DNA from: Aquitalea aquatilis
GTDB lineage: Bacteria; Pseudomonadota; Gammaproteobacteria; Burkholderiales; Chromobacteriaceae
Reading direction: 5' to 3'
DNA length: 64,000 nt
Assembly (NCBI RefSeq): GCF_005155025.1
Contig: NZ_CP039731.1
Coordinates: 1,550,001-1,614,000 of the forward strand
Below, piece by piece: positions 24,779 to 36,170 of this stretch (within the stretch, counting starts at the first letter, position 1; each line of letters starts with the position of its first letter). The notes below the pieces were generated by a model that was given only the letters and a program-made list of their open reading frames with translations, searched no databases and was not told where the DNA came from. The position numbers and the translations under genes were made by a program.

Positions 24779-25480
24779 ATGGGTCAGAAGATTCATCCGA
24801 CGGGATTCCGTCTTGCCGTTAACAAAAACTGGTCTTCCAAGTGGTTCGCCAATTCGAAGAATTTCCCGGAAATGCTGATGCAAGACCTGGAAGTCCGCGA
24901 ATACCTGAAGAAGCGCCTGGGTCATGCGGCTGTTGGTCGTGTCACCATCGAGCGTCCGGCTAAGTCGGCACGCATTACCATTCACAGTGCCCGTCCGGGT
25001 GTGGTGATCGGTAAAAAAGGTGAGGACATCGAAGTTCTGAAGCGCGAACTGCAAGCTCGTCTGGGCGTGCCGGTTCACGTGAATATCGAAGAAGTTCGCA
25101 AGCCGGAACTGGACGCGCAAATCATCGCCGACGGTATCGCTTCGCAGCTGGAAAAGCGTGTGATGTTCCGTCGTGCCATGAAGCGTTCCATGCAGAACGC
25201 CATGCGCATGGGCGCTCAGGGCATCAAGATCATGTCCTCCGGCCGTCTGAACGGTATCGATATCGCTCGTAGCGAATGGTATCGCGAAGGCCGCGTGCCG
25301 CTGCATACCCTGCGTGCCGATGTTGACTACGCTACCTCTGAAGCCAAGACTACCTACGGTATCATCGGCATCAAGGTATGGGTTTACAAAGGTGAGCTGA
25401 AGCCGGGTCAAGTAGCGCCGGCTCCGGTTGCGACCGAGAAGAAAACGAGAAAGGGCCCACGCAATGCTGCAGCCAACTAG
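24779..25480 (+). CDS. rpsC: 30S ribosomal protein S3
   Basis: S3 is part of the mRNA entry-site helicase. The 233-residue protein has the KH domain with [17 protein letters not shown] and the C-terminal S3 domain ending in a basic tail. It begins [20 protein letters not shown], the universal signature. Its last 17 bases overlap rplP in another frame. Confidence 0.99.
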
Positions 25481-25880
25481 ACTCAAGTACCGTAAACAGC
25501 ATAAAGGCCGCAACACTGGTATCGCTACCCGTGGTAACAAGGTCAGCTTTGGTGATTTCGGTTTGAAGGCTGTTGGTCGTGGTCGTCTGACTGCACGTCA
25601 GATCGAAGCGGCCCGTCGTGCCATGACTCGTCACATCAAGCGTGGCGGTCGTATCTGGATCCGTATTTTCCCGGACAAACCGATTACTTCCAAGCCTGCT
25701 GAAGTACGTATGGGTGGGGGTAAGGGTTCTCCGGAATACTACGTGGCCGAAATCCAGCCTGGCAAGATGCTGTACGAAATGGACGGTGTTAACGAGGAAC
25801 TCGCTCGTGAAGCTTTCCGTCTGGCCGCAGCCAAGTTGCCGATCGCCACTGTGTTTGTAACTAGACAGGTAGGTCAGTAA
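25464..25880 (+). CDS. rplP: 50S ribosomal protein L16
   Basis: L16 helps accommodate A-site tRNA at the peptidyl transferase centre. The ATG giving [19 protein letters not shown] (138 residues) matches the family start and overlaps rpsC by 17 bases; a longer in-frame extension inside rpsC is not conserved. Family block [14 protein letters not shown] is intact. The stop overlaps the rpmC start by one base. Confidence 0.98.
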
Positions 25881-26068
25881 TGAAAGCGTCCGAACTGAAA
25901 GCCAAAACTGTTGACGAGCTGAAAGTGGAACTGCTGAGCCTCCTGAAGGCCCAGTTTGCCCTGCGCATGCAGCACGCTACTCAGCAACTCGCCAAGACCT
26001 CTGAACTGAAGAAAGTGCGTCGCGATATCGCTCGTGTACGTACCGTTCTGAAAGAAAAGGCAGTTTAA
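25880..26068 (+). CDS. rpmC: 50S ribosomal protein L29
   Basis: A 62-residue helical-hairpin protein at the tunnel exit near L23. It starts [20 protein letters not shown] and ends with the [11 protein letters not shown] helix. It overlaps rplP by one base (TAATG) and lies one base before rpsQ. Confidence 0.98.
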
Positions 26069-26069
26069 G

Positions 26070-26333
26070 ATGAGCGAAACCAAAGTTGTACGTACGCTGA
26101 CCGGTACCGTCGTCAGCGACAAGATGGATAAGACTGTAACCGTTCTGGTCGAGCGCAAGGTTAAGCACCCGATCTACGGCAAAATTATCCGTCGTTCCAA
26201 GAAGTTCCACGCACACGACGAGAACAACGAGTTTAAGGCCGGTGACATCGTAGTAATCAGCGAGTCCCGTCCCCTCTCGAAGACCAAATCGTGGGTGGTA
26301 ACTGCCCTGGTAGAGAAATCTCGCCAGGTATAA
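26070..26333 (+). CDS. rpsQ: 30S ribosomal protein S17
   Basis: S17 is a primary 16S-binding protein with an OB fold. The 87-residue sequence includes [37 protein letters not shown] and [11 protein letters not shown], all family signatures. It is the last gene before a clear promoter and leader, so it probably ends the S10-type unit. Confidence 0.98.
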
Positions 26334-26336
26334 GAC

Positions 26337-26365
26337 TTGCAAGGGACGAAAGTCCCTTGTATAAT
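26337..26365 (+). promoter_or_regulatory. Sigma-70 promoter of the spc-type unit (rplN onward)
   Basis: TTGCAA (26337-26342), a 17-base spacer and perfect TATAAT (26360-26365) start three bases after the rpsQ stop codon. The spacer together with the -35 end contains the inverted repeat AAGGGAC-GAAA-GTCCCTT, so the same bases could also fold as a GAAA-capped hairpin in the upstream transcript. Confidence 0.8.
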
Positions 26366-26431
26366 GGCCATCTTCTTATCCGTGTCGGATAGGAATTCCG
26401 CCCTTACGGGGTCCAAAACTGGCCGTTTGAC

Positions 26432-26460
26432 ACGCCACAGTCTTGCTGTGGCGTTTCGTC
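26432..26460 (+). other. Leader hairpin upstream of rplN
   Basis: ACGCCACAG and CTGTGGCGT form a perfect 9-pair stem with a five-base loop, followed by TTCGTCTGTTTGG. It sits about 60 bases into the predicted rplN leader. It could be a weak attenuator or a binding site for a regulatory ribosomal protein; there is no solid T-run. Confidence 0.6.
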
Positions 26461-26537
26461 TGTTTGGTCTTGCTCTTATGCGAGAAACCGGCAGGTGAAA
26501 GTGACGGATAAAGTTGGATTAGAAAGGTAATCATCAA

Positions 26538-26906
26538 ATGATCCAAATGCAGACCATGCTTGAGGTCGCTGACAATACCGGTGCGCGTCACGTTATGTGC
26601 ATCAAGGTATTGGGCGGTTCCAAGCGTCGCTATGCAAGCGTTGGCGACATCATCAAGGTGAGCATCAAGGATGCTGCTCCGCGCGGTCGCGTCAAAAAAG
26701 GCGACGTGTACAACGCAGTAGTAGTACGCACCGCCAAGGGCGTGCGTCGTCCGGACGGCTCGTTGATCAAGTTTGATAGCAACGCTGCCGTTCTGCTCAA
26801 CAACAAGCTTGAGCCGATTGGCACTCGCATCTTCGGGCCCGTGACGCGTGAACTGCGTACCGAGCGCTTCATGAAGATCGTGTCGCTTGCTCCTGAAGTG
26901 CTGTAA
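26538..26906 (+). CDS. rplN: 50S ribosomal protein L14
   Basis: L14 sits at the subunit interface, and binds RsfS. The 122-residue protein begins [20 protein letters not shown] and contains [20 protein letters not shown]. It is preceded by a roughly 170-base leader from the promoter at 26337, unusually long for the tightly packed genes around it. GAAAGG lies upstream of the ATG. Confidence 0.99.
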
Positions 26907-26915
26907 GGAGGTCGC

Positions 26916-27230
26916 ATGCGCAAAATTCGTAAAGGTGATGAAGTCGTAGTAATCACCGGTAAAGACAAGGGTAAACGCGGCACCGTTCTGCGTGTTCTGG
27001 AAGAGAAACTGGTTGTTGAAGGTGTGAACATCGCCAAGAAACACCAGAAGCCGAATCCGGTACGTGGTGTTGCTGGTGGTATCGTCGAAAAGATCATGCC
27101 TGTTGACGCTTCCAACGTCGCTATTTTCAATCCGGCTAGCCAAAAGGCTGACCGCGTGGGCTTCAAGACTCTTGAAGACGGCCGCAAGGTACGCGTGTTC
27201 AAGTCCAACGGCGAAGTTATCGGCGCGTAA
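26916..27230 (+). CDS. rplX: 50S ribosomal protein L24
   Basis: L24 is one of two assembly-initiating 50S proteins. The 104-residue sequence has the KOW motif [20 protein letters not shown] and a basic C-terminal half. AAGGAGG precedes the ATG, nine bases after rplN. Confidence 0.98.
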
Positions 27231-27242
27231 GGAAAAGCAAAC

Positions 27243-27782
27243 ATGGCACGTTTCTACGATTTCTACAAAGACAGCGTAGTGCCGGAACTGATGAAACAGT
27301 TCGGCTACAAGTCGATCATGGAAGTACCGCGCATCGAAAAGATCACCGTCAACATGGGTGTGGGCGAAGCTGTTGCCGATAAAAAGGTAATGGAATTTGC
27401 CGTGGGCGATATGGAAAAGATCGCCGGCCAGAAGCCGGTTGTCACCACCGCTCGCAAATCCATCGCTGGCTTCAAGATTCGCGATGACTATCCGGTCGGC
27501 TGCAAGGTAACCCTGCGCCGTGAACGCATGTACGAATTCCTGGACCGTCTGGTGACCATCGCGTTGCCGCGTGTCCGTGACTTCCGTGGTGTTTCCGCCA
27601 AGTCTTTCGACGGCCGCGGCAACTACAACATGGGCGTCAAGGAACAGATCATCTTCCCGGAAATCGAGTACGACAAGATCGATGCTCTGCGTGGTATGAA
27701 CATTACTGTTACCACTACGGCGAAGACTGACGAAGAGGCCCGCGCACTGCTGGCCGCGTTCAAGTTCCCGTTCAAGGGTTAA
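27243..27782 (+). CDS. rplE: 50S ribosomal protein L5
   Basis: L5 binds 5S rRNA and the central protuberance. The 179-residue protein contains [18 protein letters not shown] and [16 protein letters not shown], both hallmarks. In E. coli S8 represses the spc operon at the rplX-rplE junction; the 12-base spacer here is too short for me to judge a site. Confidence 0.98.
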
Positions 27783-27786
27783 GCAC

Positions 27787-28092
27787 ATGGCAAAACTTGC
27801 ACTGATCAAGCGTGAAGAGAAGCGCGTTAAGGTGGCTGAAAAATTTGCCGCTAAGCGCGAAGCCCTCATCGCTACCATCAACAATCAAAGCCTCTCGGAA
27901 GAAGAACGCTTTGCCGCTCGCCTGCAACTGCAGCAGCTGCCGCGCAATGCTTCCCCGGTTCGCCAGCGTCGTCGCTGTGCTATCACCGGTCGTCCGCGTG
28001 GCGTGTTCCGTAAATTTGGTCTGGGTCGTAACAAACTCCGCGAAATCGCCATGAAGGGCGAAATTCCGGGTGTTGTTAAGGCCAGCTGGTAA
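27787..28092 (+). CDS. rpsN: 30S ribosomal protein S14 (zinc-independent type)
   Basis: S14 is a late-assembling head protein. The 101-residue long form lacks the CxxC pairs of the short zinc type; the C-terminal block [20 protein letters not shown] is diagnostic. It lies four bases after rplE and 14 before rpsH. Confidence 0.97.
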
Positions 28093-28106
28093 TAGGAGAT
28101 ACATAA

Positions 28107-28502
28107 ATGAGCATGCACGATCCTATTTCCGATATGTTGACCCGCATCCGTAACGGCCAAATGGCTTCCAAGGTGGCTGTTGCAATGCCGTCTTCCAAGC
28201 TGAAAATTGCGCTGGCACAGGTGCTGAAAGAAGAAGGCTACATCGAAGATTTCGCCGTTGCCGGCGAAGCCAAGAAGCCTGTTCTTGATATCCAGCTCAA
28301 GTATTACGCTGGCCGTCCGGTGATCGAGCGCATTGACCGCGTTTCGCGTCCCGGCCTGCGCGTATACAAGGGCTCCACCGAAATCCCGAAGGTAATGAAT
28401 GGTCTGGGTGTAGCGATTCTGTCTACTTCCAAGGGCATCATGACCGATCGTAAAGCACGCGCTGCCGGTATCGGCGGTGAGCTGCTCTGCGTCGTGGCGT
28501 AA
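28107..28502 (+). CDS. rpsH: 30S ribosomal protein S8
   Basis: S8 binds helix 21 of 16S rRNA and is the spc-operon autorepressor in E. coli. The 131-residue sequence starts [18 protein letters not shown] and contains [19 protein letters not shown] near the C-terminus. AGGAGA precedes the ATG. Confidence 0.98.
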
Positions 28503-28511
28503 GGGGGTCAA

Positions 28512-29045
28512 ATGTCTCGCGTAGCTAAGAATCCGGTGGCCATTCCGGCCGGCGTCGAAGTAAAATTCGGTGCTGCAGAAGTGACTGTTAAGGGTGCCCT
28601 GGGCAGCCTGAGCACCGCTCTGTGCCAAGAGGTTGAAGTCAAGTTCGACAACAATGAACTGACTTTCGCCGCTAAAAACGACAGCAAGTTCGCACGTGCC
28701 ATGTCTGGTACTCTGCGTGCTCTGCTGAACAATATGGTGATTGGTGTCTCCAAGGGCTTCGAGAAGAAGCTGCAGCTGGTAGGTGTGGGCTATCGTGCCC
28801 AGGCTCAAGGCGACATTCTGAACCTGTCTCTGGGTTTCTCTCACCCGGTAGCTCACCAGATGCCCGCTGGCATCCAAGCTGTGACACCGACTCAGACCGA
28901 GATCCTGATCAAGGGTGCTAACAAGCAACTCGTTGGCCAGATCGCTGCCGAAATCCGCGCATACCGCTCCCCGGAACCCTACAAGGGCAAGGGCGTTCGT
29001 TACGCTGATGAGGTTGTGGTTCTGAAAGAAACCAAGAAGAAGTAA
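28512..29045 (+). CDS. rplF: 50S ribosomal protein L6
   Basis: L6 lies near the sarcin-ricin loop and is built from two repeated alpha/beta domains. The 177-residue protein begins [17 protein letters not shown] and ends with [18 protein letters not shown], the family signature. GGGGG upstream serves as ribosome binding site. Confidence 0.98.
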
Positions 29046-29058
29046 CTGAGGCACTGAC

Positions 29059-29412
29059 ATGGACAAGAAACAAGCTCGACTCCGCCGTGCACGTAAAACC
29101 CGTGCTCGGATTGCGGAGCTCAAGATGGTGCGTCTCACTGTTTACCGCACCAACAGCCACATTTATGCCCAGATCATTGATGAAACTGGCAGTAAGGTAC
29201 TGGCAAGCGCTTCCACTCTGGAAGCCGAAGTACGCGCTGACGTTTCCAATGGTGGCAATGTGGCCGCTGCAGCCGTAGTCGGTAAGCGCATCGCTGAAAA
29301 AGCCAAGGCAGCCGGTATTTCGACCGTGGCATTTGACCGTTCCGGTTTCAAATACCATGGCCGTATGAAGGCTGTGGCAGACGCAGCCCGTGAACACGGT
29401 CTCGTATTCTAA
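29059..29412 (+). CDS. rplR: 50S ribosomal protein L18
   Basis: L18 binds 5S rRNA with L5 and L25. The 117-residue sequence starts with a basic segment ([18 protein letters not shown]) and includes [20 protein letters not shown], the C-terminal hallmark. It sits in the standard L6-L18-S5 order. Confidence 0.98.
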
Positions 29413-29425
29413 TTCGGAGTGAAGA

Positions 29426-29944
29426 ATGGCTAAGCACGAAATGGAAGATCGTGGCGACGGTCTGGTCGAGAAGATGATCAGCGTCAACCGCGTCACCAAA
29501 GTGGTTAAGGGCGGCCGTATTATGGCTTTCTCCGCCTTGACCGTCGTTGGTGATGGCGATGGCGGCATCGGTATGGGCAAAGGTCGTTCCAAGGAAGTTC
29601 CGGTTGCCGTACAAAAGGCAATGGAACAGGCCCGCCGCAATCTGGTAAAGATCCCGCTGCGTAATGGTACCCTGCACCACACCGTATCGGGTAAGCACGG
29701 TGCTACTACCGTCTTTATCCAGCCGGCTAAAGAAGGTACTGGCGTTAAGGCCGGTGGCCCGATGCGTGCAATTTTTGACGCAATGGGTATTCACAATGTT
29801 TCGGCCAAGATTCATGGTTCCACCAACCCGTACAACGTGGTTCGTGCAACTCTGGACGGCCTGAGCAAGATTAGCACCGCCTCTCAGGTTGCCGCCAAGC
29901 GCGGTCTGACCGTTGACGAGATCCTGGGGGTTAATCATGAGTAA
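29426..29944 (+). CDS. rpsE: 30S ribosomal protein S5
   Basis: S5 shapes the mRNA entry tunnel and affects fidelity. The 172-residue protein has the N-terminal dsRNA-binding fold ([20 protein letters not shown]) and the loop [16 protein letters not shown]. The spectinomycin loop shows no deletion. Its last eight bases overlap rpmD. Confidence 0.98.
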
Positions 29945-30122
29945 CGCCAACACTGTAAAGGTAACTCTGGTAAAGAGCCTGATCGGTCGTCTGGAATCCC
30001 ACAAGGCTTGCGCCCGTGGCCTGGGTCTGAAAAAGATCCGCCAGACTGTGGAAGTGCTCGATACCCCTGAAAACCGTGGCATGATCAACAAGATCAGCTA
30101 CCTGCTCAAATTCGAGGGCTAA
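29937..30122 (+). CDS. rpmD: 50S ribosomal protein L30
   Basis: A 61-residue protein at the 50S surface. The ATG giving [20 protein letters not shown] overlaps the rpsE 3' end by eight bases and is preceded by GGGGG; a start eight codons upstream lies deeper in rpsE and is not conserved. [20 protein letters not shown] matches the family. Confidence 0.97.
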
Positions 30123-30125
30123 GAG

Positions 30126-30557
30126 ATGCTGCTGAACACCATTCAACCCGGTGACGGCGCCAAGCATGCGAAGCGTCGTGTAGGTCGCGGTATTGGTAGC
30201 GGCCTGGGTAAGACTGCCGGTCGTGGCCATAAGGGTCAAAAGAGCCGTGCAGGTGGTTTCCACAAGGTCGGTTTTGAAGGCGGTCAAATGCCGCTGCAAC
30301 GTCGCCTGCCGAAACGTGGCTTCAAGTCGCTGACGGCTCGCTTCAATGCAGAGGTTCGCCTGTCCGAACTGAACTTGCTGCCGGTCGATGAAATCGATCT
30401 GTTGTCGCTCAAGCAAGCTGGTCTGGTTGCTGCTCAGGCTCTGGTAGCCAAGGTGGTACTGTCCGGCAAGATCGAGCGTGCTGTTAAGCTGCGTGGTATT
30501 GCAGCGACTGCTGGCGCTCGCGCTGCTATCGAAGCTGCCGGCGGCAGTATTGAATAA
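30126..30557 (+). CDS. rplO: 50S ribosomal protein L15
   Basis: L15 is a late-assembly protein with a long basic extension. The 143-residue sequence contains [20 protein letters not shown] and [20 protein letters not shown], both diagnostic. It immediately precedes secY, the universal arrangement. Confidence 0.98.
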
Positions 30558-30568
30558 GGCGCACTTAC

Positions 30569-31888
30569 GTGTCGAATACTTCTCTAGTTGGAAATACCAA
30601 TAAATTTGGTGATTTGAAGCGCCGTATCATGTTTTTGATCGGAGCTTTGATTGTTTACCGCATCGGCGCTCATATTCCGGTGCCTGGTATCAATCCTGCC
30701 GAACTAGCGAAGTTGTTCCACACGTCGCAGACGGGCCTGCTCGACATGTTCAACATGTTCTCGGGCGGTGCCCTCTCGAGATTTACGGTATTTGCCCTGG
30801 GCATCATGCCGTACATCTCTGCTTCCATCATTCTTCAGCTGGCTTCCGAGGTTCTGCCTAGTTTGAAGCAGCTGAAGAAGGAAGGCGACGCGGGACGTCG
30901 TAAGGTAACCCAGTACACACGTTATGCAACCGTATTGCTGGCCTCGTTTCAGAGTTTCAGTATCGCGGTAATGCTGTTTAAGCAGCCTAACCTGGTGGTG
31001 ACTGCCCAGTGGGAGTTCTACCTGACAACCGTGGTAACCCTGGTTACCGGCACCATGTTCCTCATGTGGCTGGGTGAACAGATTACCGAACGCGGTATCG
31101 GCAACGGTATCTCGCTGATCATCTGTGCAGGTATTGCATCAGGTGTTCCGGCTGCCATTGGCAAGACGCTCACGCTGACCAGTCAAGGCTCGCTGCCCAT
31201 CCTGTTTACCATCGTGCTGTTTGTTGGTGTTGCACTGATGACTTACGTTGTTGTGTTCGCAGAACGCGGTCAACGTAAAGTATTGGTCAACTACGCCAAG
31301 CGTCAGGTTGGTAATCGTGTCATGCAGGGCCAGAGCACGCACATGCCGCTCAAGCTCAACATGGCAGGGGTGATTCCGCCGATTTTTGCATCCAGCATCA
31401 TTCTGTTTCCTGCCACCATTCTTGGCTGGCTGGGCAACAATGAAAGCCTGGGTTGGCTCAAGGGCGTAGCTGACAAGCTGCATCCCGGACAGCCCATCTA
31501 TGTGCTGCTGTATGCAACGGCCATCATTTTCTTCTGTTATTTCTACACCGCTCTCGTTTTCAATCCGAAAGAGACGGCAGACAACTTGAAGAAAAGTGGT
31601 GCTTTCATCCCAGGTATCCGTCCAGGTGAGCAGACTTCGCGTTACATCGAGAAGATCATTCTGCGGCTGACACTTATCGGTGCGATCTACATTACGCTGG
31701 TTTGTCTGTTGCCGGAATTCCTCATCTTGAAGTGGAATGTACCGTTCTACTTCGGTGGTACATCACTGCTGATCATCGTGGTGGTCACCATGGATTTCAT
31801 GGCTCAGGTTCAGTCCTACGTACTGTCGCATCAGTATGAGAGCTTGCTGAAGAAGGCTAACTTCAAAGGCAATGCCCTTACCCGCTGA
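30569..31888 (+). CDS. secY: Preprotein translocase subunit SecY
   Basis: SecY is the ten-helix channel of the Sec translocon. The start is GTG ([19 protein letters not shown]), with AAGG upstream and no nearer ATG in frame. The 439-residue protein carries [28 protein letters not shown] and the cytoplasmic loop [19 protein letters not shown]. It is followed not by a functional infA but by an infA relic. Confidence 0.98.
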
Positions 31889-31911
31889 CACACGTGTTCT
31901 CGCTGGGTTAT

Positions 31912-32127
31912 ATGGCTAGGTAAGACACCATCCAGATGCAGGGTGAGATCAGGCAGGAGCACCTGGGTGCTGCTGCAGGATCAAACTTGAGAATGGACAC
32001 GTAGTAATTGGGCGTAAGCAGTAATGACACAGATGTTCGCATCTGTGCCCTGGCTGTTTACAAGGTTACGGTGGAACTAATTCCATCCGATTTGACCTCT
32101 GCCCGTATCGTGTTCCGTGCGAAATAA
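31912..32127 (+). pseudogene. infA: Decayed infA (translation initiation factor IF-1)
   Basis: The start reads ATG GCT AGG TAA, then codes DTIQMQGEI, matching the IF-1 N-terminus MAKEDTIQMQGEI except for a stop at codon 4. After about 11 bases (one short of the expected 12) the frame shifts; in the new frame the segment KLENGHVVIGRK is recognisable, followed by TAA and TGA codons and about two missing codons. A further net insertion of about four bases restores the original frame, in which the C-terminus KVTVELIPSDL...SARIVFRAK and stop are clear. This is the canonical infA position between secY and rpmJ. With a nonsense codon and several frameshifts it cannot encode IF-1; a functional infA must lie elsewhere. 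Confidence 0.88.
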
Positions 32128-32163
32128 CGCACTCGCTCTTTTAGAGTAACGAAAGGAACTGAC

Positions 32164-32277
32164 ATGCGAGTACAGCCTTCGGTAAAGAAGATTTGCCGTA
32201 ACTGCAAAATCATCCGTCGCAATCGCGTAGTTCGCGTGATCTGCACGGACCCGCGTCACAAGCAAAAGCAAGGCTAA
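32164..32277 (+). CDS. rpmJ: 50S ribosomal protein L36 (zinc-binding type)
   Basis: A 37-residue protein, [20 protein letters not shown] and a basic tail. The zinc ligands Cys11, Cys14, Cys27 and His32 are all present, so this is the C+ form. AAAGGA lies ten bases upstream of the ATG. It sits between the infA relic and the rpsM promoter. Confidence 0.97.
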
Positions 32278-32280
32278 CAT

Positions 32281-32309
32281 TTGTTAGACCTGACTTTGCG
32301 TGTTACAAT
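32281..32309 (+). promoter_or_regulatory. Extended -10 promoter of the alpha operon
   Basis: TTGTTA (32281-32286), 17 bases, and TGTTACAAT (TG at 32301-32302, -10 hexamer TACAAT at 32304-32309) form an extended -10 promoter three bases after rpmJ. It would drive rpsM-rpsK-rpsD-rpoA-rplQ. Confidence 0.7.
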
Positions 32310-32347
32310 CGCAAACTTTTCAAGGTCTTAAGGCTTAAGGAAAGAGT

Positions 32348-32710
32348 ATGGCCCGTATTGCAGGGGTAAATATCCCCAATCATGCGCATGCCGTTATCGG
32401 CCTGCAGGCAATTTTCGGCATCGGTCAGACTCGCGCCCAGCAGATTTGTGTTGCTGCCAGCGTGAATCCCTCCACCAAGGTGAAGGATCTGACAGAAGCT
32501 GAGATGGAAACTCTGCGTGAAGCAGTGGCGAAGTTCACCGTTGAAGGTGACCTGCGTCGCGAAATCACCATGAGCATCAAGCGTCTGATGGACATGGGCT
32601 GCTATCGCGGTCTGCGTCATCGTCGTGGCCTGCCGTGTCGCGGTCAGCGCACTCGCACTAACGCTCGTACCCGCAAGGGACCGCGTAAGGCGATCGCCGG
32701 CAAGAAGTAA
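32348..32710 (+). CDS. rpsM: 30S ribosomal protein S13
   Basis: S13 contacts P-site tRNA and 50S bridges. The 120-residue protein starts [20 protein letters not shown] and has the C-terminal [19 protein letters not shown] tail. AAGGAAAG precedes the ATG. First gene of the alpha operon. Confidence 0.98.
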
Positions 32711-32726
32711 CTAAAGGAACACAGAA

Positions 32727-33122
<396 letters not shown>

Positions 33123-33140
33123 TTCGGAGAGTGTGAGAAC

Positions 33141-33761
33141 ATGGCACGTTATATCGGCCCGAAATGTAAGCTCGCTCGTCGTGAAGGCACCGACCTTTTC
33201 CTGAAGAGCGCGCGTCGTGCACTGGATTCCAAGTGCAAACTGGACACCCCTCCTGGCCAGCATGGCGCTCGTAAGAGCCGCCTGTCTGACTACGGTGTCC
33301 AGCTGCGTGAAAAGCAGAAAATCCGCCGTATCTATGGCGTACTCGAGCGTCAGTTCCGCAACTACTTTGCGGAAGCTGTGCGTCGTAAAGGCTCCACTGG
33401 TGAAAACCTGCTGAAGCTGCTCGAGGCCCGTCTGGACAACGTTGTATATCGCATGGGCTTTGGCTCCACTCGTGCAGAAGCACGTCAGTTGGTAAGCCAC
33501 AAGGCTATCGTTGTGAACGGCCAGGTAGTTAACATTCCGTCTTTCCAGGTTAAAGCTGGTGACGTTGTGTCTGTCCGCGAAAAGGCCAAGAAACAGGCCC
33601 GTATCGTAGAAGGTCTGGCTCTGGCTGAGCAAGGTGGTTTCCCTACTTGGGTGTCGGTTGACTCCAAGAAGATGGAAGGCGTCTTCAAATCTGCTCCGGA
33701 ACGTTCCGAACTGTCTAGCGATATCAACGAACAACTCGTTGTGGAATTCTACTCCAAGTAA
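33141..33761 (+). CDS. rpsD: 30S ribosomal protein S4
   Basis: S4 initiates 30S assembly and, in E. coli, represses the alpha operon. The 206-residue protein lacks the N-terminal zinc cysteine cluster and has the S4 RNA-binding domain ([20 protein letters not shown]). CGGAGAG lies upstream of the ATG. Confidence 0.98.
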
Positions 33762-33784
33762 TCGCTAGCTCTTAGGGAATGACT

Positions 33785-34768
33785 ATGCAAAACAGCGCTT
33801 CGGAATTTTTGAAACCTCGTCTGATTGACGTGCAGCCGGTCTCCGCGACCCATGCACGCGTATCGATGGAGCCGTTCGAGCGTGGGTACGCCCATACTCT
33901 GGGAAACTCGCTGCGCCGCATTCTGCTGTCGTCGATGCCGGGCTTTGCTCCTACCGAAGTGACTATCGCTGGCGTTTTGCATGAGTATTCCGCACTTGAT
34001 GGCGTGCGTGAGGATGTCGTAGACATCCTCCTCAACCTCAAGGGCGTAGTGCTTAAGCTGCATGGTCGTGACAGTGTTGTGCTGACCCTGAAAAAGGAAG
34101 GCGAAGGCGCTGTCTTGGCTGGCGATATCGAGTTGCCGCATGACGTGGAAGTGATCAATCCGGAACACGTGATTGCTCATCTCTCCGTTGGTGGCAAAAT
34201 CGACATGGAGATCAAGGTCGAAAAAGGCCGTGGCTATCAGCCTGTGTCTGTTCGGTCCATGCATGAAGAAAACCGTTCCATCGGTACCATTCAACTGGAT
34301 GCTTCCTTCTCGCCGGTTCGCCGTGTGAGCTTTGCAGTGGAAAGCGCCCGTGTTGAGCAACGTACCGACCTCGACCGCCTGGTTCTCGATATTGAGACCA
34401 ATGGCGTCATCGAACCGGAACAGGCCGTGCGTAATGCTGCACGTATTCTGATGGATCAGCTGTCGATCTTTGCTGACCTCCAAGGCACAGCGGTTGAAGA
34501 AGTCGTTGAAAAGGCGCCGCCGATCGATCCGATCTTGCTGCGTCCGGTAGACGATCTTGAACTGACGGTTCGTTCGGCCAACTGCCTGAAGGCAGAGAAC
34601 ATTTACTACATCGGCGATCTGATCCAGCGTACTGAAACCGAGCTTCTGAAGACTCCGAACCTCGGTCGCAAGTCGCTGAACGAGATCAAAGAAGTTCTCG
34701 CTTCGAAGGGCCTGACTCTCGGCATGAAGCTCGAGAATTGGCCTCCGGCTGGTCTGGAAAAGCCGTAA
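33785..34768 (+). CDS. rpoA: DNA-directed RNA polymerase subunit alpha
   Basis: The alpha dimer scaffolds RNA polymerase and its C-terminal domain contacts UP elements and activators. I choose the second ATG ([17 protein letters not shown], 327 residues) since AGGGA lies six bases before it, while the ATG two codons earlier would have no spacer. The N-terminal domain has [20 protein letters not shown]; the CTD has [20 protein letters not shown] and [17 protein letters not shown]. Confidence 0.98.
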
Positions 34769-34792
34769 GTTTGAGACTAAAGGACATTAACA

Positions 34793-35188
34793 ATGCGTCA
34801 TCGTTACAGTAATCGTAAACTGAACCGCACGACCAGCCATCGTCTGGCGATGCTGCGCAACATGGCGAATTCGCTGCTGAAGCACGAAGTTATCGTGACC
34901 ACGCTGCCGAAAGCCAAGGAACTGCGTCGTGTGGCCGAGCCGCTGATTACGCTCGGCAAAAAGCCGTCTCTCGCCAACCGTCGTCTGGCGTTTGACCGCA
35001 CTCGTGACCGCGATATCGTGGTTAAACTCTTCGACGAACTCGGCCCGCGCTTCTCCGCCCGCAATGGTGGTTATGTGCGTATCCTGAAGTACGGTTTCCG
35101 CAAGGGCGACAACGCCCCGATGGCTCTGGTAGAGCTGGTGGATCGTGCTGAAGATGCCGTCGCAGTCGTAGATGACTCCGCTGAGTAA
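34793..35188 (+). CDS. rplQ: 50S ribosomal protein L17
   Basis: The 131-residue protein starts [20 protein letters not shown], the L17 signature, and ends with an acidic tail. AAAGGA precedes the ATG. It is the last gene of the ribosomal superblock and is followed by a terminator. Confidence 0.98.
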
Positions 35189-35210
35189 TTTTCAGTGAAG
35201 TTGTGAAAAA

Positions 35211-35234
35211 AGCCAGCGTAAGCTGGCTTTTTTC
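35211..35234 (+). terminator. Intrinsic terminator after rplQ
   Basis: AGCCAGC-GTAA-GCTGGCT, flanked by an A-run upstream and TTTTTT downstream, forms a GNRA-capped terminator 22 bases after the rplQ stop. The symmetric A/T flanks could also terminate transcription from the minus-strand MOSC gene. Confidence 0.95.
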
Positions 35235-35372
35235 ATTTCTGAGTCTGTTTCGCAGGCCAGAATCCCTTGTCGGGCAGCTCAAACCGGGCTGGTGGCCGGC
35301 CGATTTTCACACGAGACTAATCAAGTCTGATGTTTCGACCGCCGGGCATGACCGCTATGCTCTGTTATCTAT

Positions 35373-36170
35373 TCAGAAGGTGTAGCGTGATTCTACAACT
35401 TCCACCGCAGCACCCAGTTCCAGTATCCCTTCACTGCGGGCGACAAGGTTGACTCCAAAGCAGATGCCTTCGGGCAGCTGGCGGGTGCGAATCAGCGTGT
35501 GCATTGGCTCGTTGTCGCTGGAGAATTCACCGGTTTGTGGATCGACTGTGGTCAACTGGCAGCGGGTACATGGCTTTGCCACATCAAACAGGATGTCGCC
35601 AATGCGAATGACGCTCCAGTCATCTTCTTCATAAGGCATGGCGCCATCGATAACCAGATTCGGGCGGAAGTGGCGCAGGCTGACCGCCTGAGGCAAGTCC
35701 TGATTCAAGGCATCCAGCGAAGCCTGATTGACTAGCAGATAGGGGTAGCCGTCAGCAAACGACATTGGCGTATTGCCAGATTGCAGGGTGCGGCGGGAGT
35801 GCATGCCGAGCCACAGCAATTTGCAAGGAATGCCCATGTACTGGCTAAACCAGCCATCCACATGACTGTCACCGTGCAGCGCGCTGAATTCATCCTTCCA
35901 AACTGCAGTGACAACCGGCAGGGTATAAACCTGGGTCATGGCCATCACAGCTGGCATGCCGGGTGCTTTAAGCAGCATGCCGCCCGGAATCAGATCCATT
36001 TCAATCAGCACCATGCGCGGAAATTCGCGCGCGGTAAGAAAGCGGCCTTCCGGTGTGACCAGCAGCCATTCGCGGTCGTGCAGCAAGCCTTGCTGGCTGG
36101 CATAGGCACGGCTATAGCTAATACCACGGGCCGATTTCATCGGATGCACGAACATCTGGCTCAGTTGCAT
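35373..36170 (-). CDS. MOSC domain-containing protein (YcbX-like)
   Basis: A 265-residue protein with an N-terminal MOSC beta-barrel region (MQLSQMFVHPMKSARGIS) and a C-terminal MOSC domain with PCTRCQ (200-205), the putative molybdenum-cofactor ligand cysteine region. Family members such as YcbX detoxify N-hydroxylated bases using Moco. No clear partner reductase is adjacent. It lies downstream of the MocR-type regulator on the same strand, 36 bases away, so they may be cotranscribed, though a functional link is not obvious. Confidence 0.88.
   Translation of the reverse strand: MQLSQMFVHPMKSARGISYSRAYASQQGLLHDREWLLVTPEGRFLTAREFPRMVLIEMDLIPGGMLLKAPGMPAVMAMTQVYTLPVVTAVWKDEFSALHGDSHVDGWFSQYMGIPCKLLWLGMHSRRTLQSGNTPMSFADGYPYLLVNQASLDALNQDLPQAVSLRHFRPNLVIDGAMPYEEDDWSVIRIGDILFDVAKPCTRCQLTTVDPQTGEFSSDNEPMHTLIRTRQLPEGICFGVNLVARSEGILELGAAVEVVESRYTF

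Follow-up and report, generated by a model that had tools for sequence, protein, structure and literature searches.

Ribosomal protein mRNA leaders, such as Alpha_RBS (RF00140) of the S4-controlled alpha operon, are structured cis-acting RNAs that lie beside a ribosome binding site within a ribosomal protein operon, and their distribution is described in one account as narrow and lineage-specific (PMC4137082). In dual-coding RNA elements, synonymous codon choice within a gene serves an RNA helix, while the ordinary functional replacement of infA, the gene for initiation factor IF-1, is backed by a second infA gene. One source holds infA to be ancestral to the proteobacterial spc operon (PMC8046335); in Escherichia coli, the regulation of secY and rpmJ is called unclear in a review (PMC10931766), and disruption of rpmJ is reported to lower secY expression (PMC10502375). 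A literature search, with most subscription journals outside its reach, turned up no publication about an RNA overlapping infA or about the pseudogene described here.

The window, a 64,000-nucleotide stretch of the Aquitalea aquatilis genome, contains an operon that is among the most conserved in bacteria, within which the following features frame the locus of interest.

30569-31888, + strand: secY, intact, upstream of the remnant, with its stop codon at 31886-31888
31912-32127, + strand: dead operon copy of infA, with TAA as codon 4 and frameshifts interrupting its 72-codon frame
32164-32277, + strand: rpmJ (ribosomal protein L36), starting with ATG at 32164, the sole PF00444 match and hence the sole L36 gene found in the genome

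The original prediction had called the operon infA a decayed pseudogene with recognisable ends in frame and a middle in another, and rechecking of the coordinates bore this out. The remnant, which lies between secY and rpmJ, opens with ATG (31912-31914), GCT and AGG followed by TAA (31921-31923); DTIQMQGEI remains readable in the start frame past this stop, KLENGHVVIGR is found in another frame, and the end reads KVTVEL and ARIVFRAK before terminating at TAA 32125-32127. The PF01176 profile gave no match at 31912-32127, and homology to infA covers the entire 275-nt secY-rpmJ spacer, so that the resemblance is not due to chance; IF-1 homology at the orthologous position with a broken frame marks the stretch as an infA pseudogene. 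Sequencing error is ruled out because the lesions recur in independently sequenced relatives, with lesion GCTAGGTAA common to eight of the nine closest dead copies (G000-G008, G000 being the present genome) and a different broken start in the ninth (G008). None of the six named Aquitalea loci (L015-L020) has an IF-1-like frame. A replacement open reading frame hidden in the remnant was rejected as well, since the longest frames vary in length and sequence among relatives and the hairpin indels do not come in threes; a 39-aa frame at 32008-32127 matched no NCBIfam family, and a promoter scan found none inside the remnant.

Total loss of IF-1 is excluded by an intact infA away from the operon. 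The genome (4,359,891 bases in one contig, completeness 100) holds a single PF01176 match, and the intact gene of 87 codons (87 aa; G000:C1:4006963-4007154) scored 108.3 bits against TIGR00008, for which the NCBIfam cut-off is 61.15, and would thus supply the replacement that had been predicted. We extended the search to ten genomes from the genus and, with these counted in, 61 from the family, representing 10 genera, placing loci via rpsM and reading the secY-rpmJ spacers. Operon infA was normal in 37 of the 61 genomes and not normal in 24, and all 24 of the latter carried a full-length match to infA outside the operon. Two copies are common in the family, as had been said of related bacteria, with the operon copy being the only one in six genomes (G036, G038, G040, G045, G046, and G047). 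Comparison of the related spacers showed the loss to be common to G000-G008 and recurrent in the family, with at least five events on a tree of secY and rpsM-rpoA DNA, or six if G009 is counted as surviving, as counted by eye on a tree with some poorly supported inner branches. The original prediction of a lost operon copy therefore stands insofar as that copy is dead and the second gene intact, but the loss is neither confined to this genome nor recent, and what it left is not a random relic.

Spacers of the same kind with no IF-1-like frame occur in Aquitalea aquatica, A. palustris, A. magnusonii, and A. pelogenes, in Chromobacterium sphagni and C. aquaticum, in Crenobacter intestini and C. 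caeni, and in a Craterilacuibacter sp., and an IF-1-like frame is present in Chromobacterium vaccinii and C. sinusclupearum. Two operon copies (G021 and G025) gave partial profile matches of 39-40 bits. G009 (L104) retains a deviant frame that is still open over 71 residues and starts at TTG (57.2 bits) and looks like a transitional copy, in which a compensated frameshift makes a new perfect P6 hairpin. The 128-nt AT-rich spacer of G023 (L118) carries no trace of infA or of the RNA described below and serves as a natural null. Beyond the dead copy in the operon, two genomes (G002 and G004; L003, L004) hold two infA genes, of which the second lies within a longer open frame.

The reading that we favor, with a probability of roughly 0.55, is that infA overlapped a cis-acting RNA before rpmJ and that this RNA outlived the protein. 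Alignment of the nine dead copies G000-G008 found 136 of 285 columns to lie in five runs without variation, of which the final one (40 nt) covers the rpmJ leader and start.

31892-31916, + strand: invariant block 1 of G000-G008, containing the former start codon as well as the 5' strand of helix P1 (31897-31902) and that of P2 (31903-31908)
31931-31949, + strand: invariant block 2, with the P2 3' strand (ATCCAG, 31930-31935) and the base of P3
31978-32002, + strand: invariant block 3, with the P1 3' strand (31988-31993) and the P7 5' strand (GGACACG, 31995-32001)
32099-32125, + strand: invariant block 4, with the P7 3' strand CGTGTTCC (32109-32116), one U bulged
32127-32166, + strand: invariant block 5, with the rpmJ leader, the Shine-Dalgarno sequence GGAAC (32155-32159, which can pair with GUUCC of P7), and the rpmJ start

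Among the remaining 149 columns, 97 were variable with a mean pairwise difference of 0.32, compared with 72 of 223 four-fold sites in secY (mean difference 0.135, about 0.14) and 11 of 66 in rpsM (0.077). With the rpmJ leader excluded, the probability that 96 columns stay unchanged was approximately 6e-17 at the secY rate and 2.5e-8 at the rpsM rate, values which assume independent sites and blocks chosen from the same data. Testing the Aquitalea-defined blocks in other clades avoids this selection: the blocks were better kept than the rest in all five genomes of the independently dead C. aquaticum clade (p 3e-5 to 1e-7), in G031 and G032 (p 6e-6 and 2e-5), and less strongly in G009 (p 0.007). 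Blocks and pairing are thus at odds with the unconstrained drift of a pseudogene, yet 6 of the 14 tested dead copies showed no block excess; four of these (G021, G025, G026, and G044) are still 60-82% like the living gene throughout, which leaves the test little power, and the other two (G029 and G030) are eroded throughout. Much of the element is lost in Crenobacter.

Between the blocks, hairpins have been rewritten with their pairing kept. The predicted fold of the remnant comprises the following elements.

31941-31989, + strand: hairpin P3, its tip rewritten and its base conserved in Aquitalea (z -3.75 in G000, matched by 0 of 500 shuffles)
32010-32104, + strand: P4, a three-way junction enclosing P5 and P6 (32010-32013 with 32101-32104)
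32014-32061, + strand: hairpin P5, with an inner stem 32026-32035 / 32040-32049 and a UUCG loop
32063-32098, + strand: hairpin P6, a predicted pairing
32117-32132, + strand: hairpin P8, built around the former stop codon of infA, with CUCUUUU coming next

In dead copies from separate lineages, P3 and the P4-P5-P6 junction both form despite rewritten sequence and differing loops and lengths, although single hairpins are not significant in every dead copy (for P3 of G026, 86 of 500 shuffles fold as well), and most of helix P2 is absent in Vogesella. A 43-pair structure, drawn up with sight of the ten well-aligning sequences among the 24 degenerate copies and applied to those ten, paired 89.3% of cells with 15 pairs changed on both sides; on four of five measures none of 500 shuffles reached this level, on the fifth, pair types, 44 did, and a slid-partner control paired 33-47% of cells. 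Variable pairs within three clades were still paired in 213 of 236 cells, some through G-U. The clade shuffle test, in which pairs with variation on both strands were absent from two sets, was clear for G002/4/6/7 (1 of 2000) and weaker for the others (45, 239, and 73 of 2000). Mean fold z was -3.84 for 26 dead spacers (the 24 of the family plus L038 and L087) and -3.58 for 37 intact ones, with -1.18 and -0.90 for the secY and rpsK controls (61 each). Secondary structure with covariation, as in leader RNAs, is therefore present, the kinship of the sequences being partly controlled, and we regard a selected RNA structure in the remnant as likely. P8 was rejected as a transcription terminator, since it has five pairs only and the scan that lists it returned 3 sites against 1.2 expected.

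That the RNA was already present while the gene lived is partly shown, the best evidence being helix P7, in which codons 29-30 (GGA CAC) pair with codons 68-70 (GTG TTC C). All seven P7 pairs are present in 35 of 37 intact family genes (six pairs in the other two) and in 0 of 48 infA genes outside the family, while the exact four codons GGA-CAC...GTG-TTC occur in 36 of the 37 family genes, which are related and do not represent 36 independent events, and in 0 of 48 outside; GGA makes up 5% of the glycine codons in neighboring genes. In dead copies, P7 is kept in 98.6% of cells. Under dinucleotide shuffling, the fold z of intact family genes was -3.72, that of 48 genes outside the family -1.92, weaker but still stronger than chance, and that of 15 second infA genes -0.52. 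Codon permutation gave no clear family excess (z -1.46, -1.18, and -1.13 for family, outside, and second genes, respectively); the similarity of the three groups indicates that most of the fold of the living gene comes with the protein sequence. Gene-wide synonymous constraint was also not seen, mean synonymous entropy being 0.52 for infA, 0.34 for rpsM, and 0.35 for rpmJ.

Model R1, built from 35 family sequences that were themselves included in the search, matched the secY-rpmJ place in 60 of 61 genomes, with weak matches in Crenobacter and relatives that fell partly at the second infA and not in the operon. No second copy of the element was found, R1 giving one match per genome in those 60, with the extra matches, below approximately 35 bits, either located in second infA genes or weak. 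Rfam had no family matching the remnant (window positions 25000-36000, E up to 10) and none at gathering score in 15 family loci.

Repeated loss, invariant blocks, pairing kept through rewriting, and family-specific synonymous codons that fit P7 are computed observations on which a mechanism may be modeled. The operon infA of the family would comprise two layers, one being the IF-1 protein and the other a structured RNA, some 250 nt long, that lies between secY and rpmJ; with a second infA supplying IF-1, the protein layer would be free to decay, and the RNA layer would stay under selection after that loss. The folded RNA would act in cis on rpmJ, a proposal that we hold tentatively, at slightly less than even odds. 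Pairing of GUUCC with GGAC(ACG) of old codons 29-31, forming P7, would leave the rpmJ ribosome site free, and pairing of GUUCC instead with the rpmJ Shine-Dalgarno sequence GGAAC would hide it, so that L36 translation would be set by the folded RNA, perhaps in concert with a protein ligand. The GUUCC within the 3' strand of P7 is complementary to GGAAC in 42 of 61 genomes. By computed energies only, forcing P7 in G000-G007 costs 1.0-2.3 kcal/mol over the state hiding the Shine-Dalgarno sequence, while in G008 and G009 it is the hidden state that costs 4-5 kcal/mol; intact Chromobacterium has GGATC instead and no GGAAC/GUUCC alternative. This particular switch is doubtful. The fullest version, in which the infA gene of this Chromobacteriaceae-like family has two layers, with the RNA forming a bistable switch for L36 (and perhaps SecY) at the end of the spc operon, and in which Aquitalea, the C. 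aquaticum clade, and the Craterilacuibacter group, at the least, have shed the protein layer and now hold a pure regulatory RNA, is conceivable but on the unlikely side.

Downstream of rpmJ, one further feature bears on what the element could control.

32281-32309, + strand: promoter-like site between rpmJ and rpsM, TTGTTA-17-TACAAT with extended -10 (TGnTACAAT); chance expectation of the scan, 1.0

Most of the family's 61 genomes conserve this site well. It suggests that the alpha operon would start after rpmJ; if real, such a start means that the infA element faces rpmJ alone. An Alpha_RBS-like match at 32313-32380 (28.9 bits, below the gathering score of 38) begins just after it, and 32281-32380 is a possible S4-controlled alpha operon start in the family. 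The remnant itself was rejected as the S4 alpha leader, since this match is sub-threshold, downstream, and apart from it. Several weak hairpin-type Rfam matches on both strands at 35166-35340, after rplQ, probably mark the operon terminator.

The alternative that survives best, though we consider it unlikely, is that an untranslated stretch of about 270 nt in a ribosomal operon invites Rho termination and RNase, so that any strong hairpins are selected with no specific ligand or switch, perhaps also protecting the 3' end of secY mRNA. Strong folds in dead copies despite unrelated hairpin sequences fit this well, as do the replacement of the Crenobacter 3' half by other strong hairpins, the well-folded dead spacers of other families (z -4.24 for L038 and -4.91 for L087; also L175 and L176), and the lower secY expression reported upon rpmJ disruption in E. 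coli (PMC10502375). It does not predict invariant unpaired blocks or the P7 codon pattern in a gene that is still translated, and clean deletions exist (L057, 76 nt; L084, 97 nt; L177, 76 nt; L183, 17 nt). A survey of the order covered 220 genomes each for PF01176 and rpsM; among the matches listed, 20 spacers from weak-match or comparison genomes were picked by hand, 18 of them usable, and no frequency can be derived from them. Outside the family, infA losses extended from clean deletion, with spacers of 17-97 nt, to spacers that are long and folded. L038 (Deefgea) and two further non-family genomes (L175 and L176) have strongly folded secY-rpmJ spacers of about 245-255 nt without infA and may be an independent case.

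Neutral hairpin copying, in which template switching at imperfect hairpins perfects them and produces "compensatory" change without selection, the blocks being less mutable parts of a slowly dying gene, is improbable. A long hairpin is inherent in the protein sequence of infA, rewritten tips arrive as clusters with indels, and the new P6 hairpin of G009 arose via a compensated frameshift, all as copying would have it; however, columns are invariant while four-fold sites diverge, point changes in stems keep pairs too (the 213 of 236 cells, G-U included), and the P7 strands lie about 110 nt apart and involve synonymous sites. A plain neutral pseudogene with unfinished decay, which is the picture of the original prediction, agrees with the broken frame, the intact second gene, four lineages without block excess, and the complete loss in G023, but the 136 invariant columns, fold z, kept pairing, P7 codons, and block retention in other clades make it very improbable.

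If the favored reading of an RNA that outlived its protein is correct, a candidate RNA sits between secY and rpmJ from which the protein hiding it has been repeatedly removed, so that the RNA can be studied alone. The remnant would then offer a natural experiment in the separation of two functions, protein and RNA, that one sequence had served; it would also caution that a functional RNA may lie behind an apparent "pseudogene" within an operon.

Set against described systems, the locus resembles ordinary functional replacement in that loss of infA is backed by a second gene, many family genomes having two copies, but most dead copies in Aquitalea and Chromobacterium still have a spacer of 260-277 nt, which has not been deleted. 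It resembles dual-coding elements in the synonymous choice that would serve helix P7, and differs in that the protein frame is dead and the RNA part is visible alone. There is also a likeness to the ribosomal protein leaders, since the candidate RNA would likewise be a structured cis RNA adjoining a ribosome binding site within an operon for ribosomal proteins and may work in their manner; unlike them, it stands before rpmJ, inside a former gene, and outside any Rfam family at gathering score.
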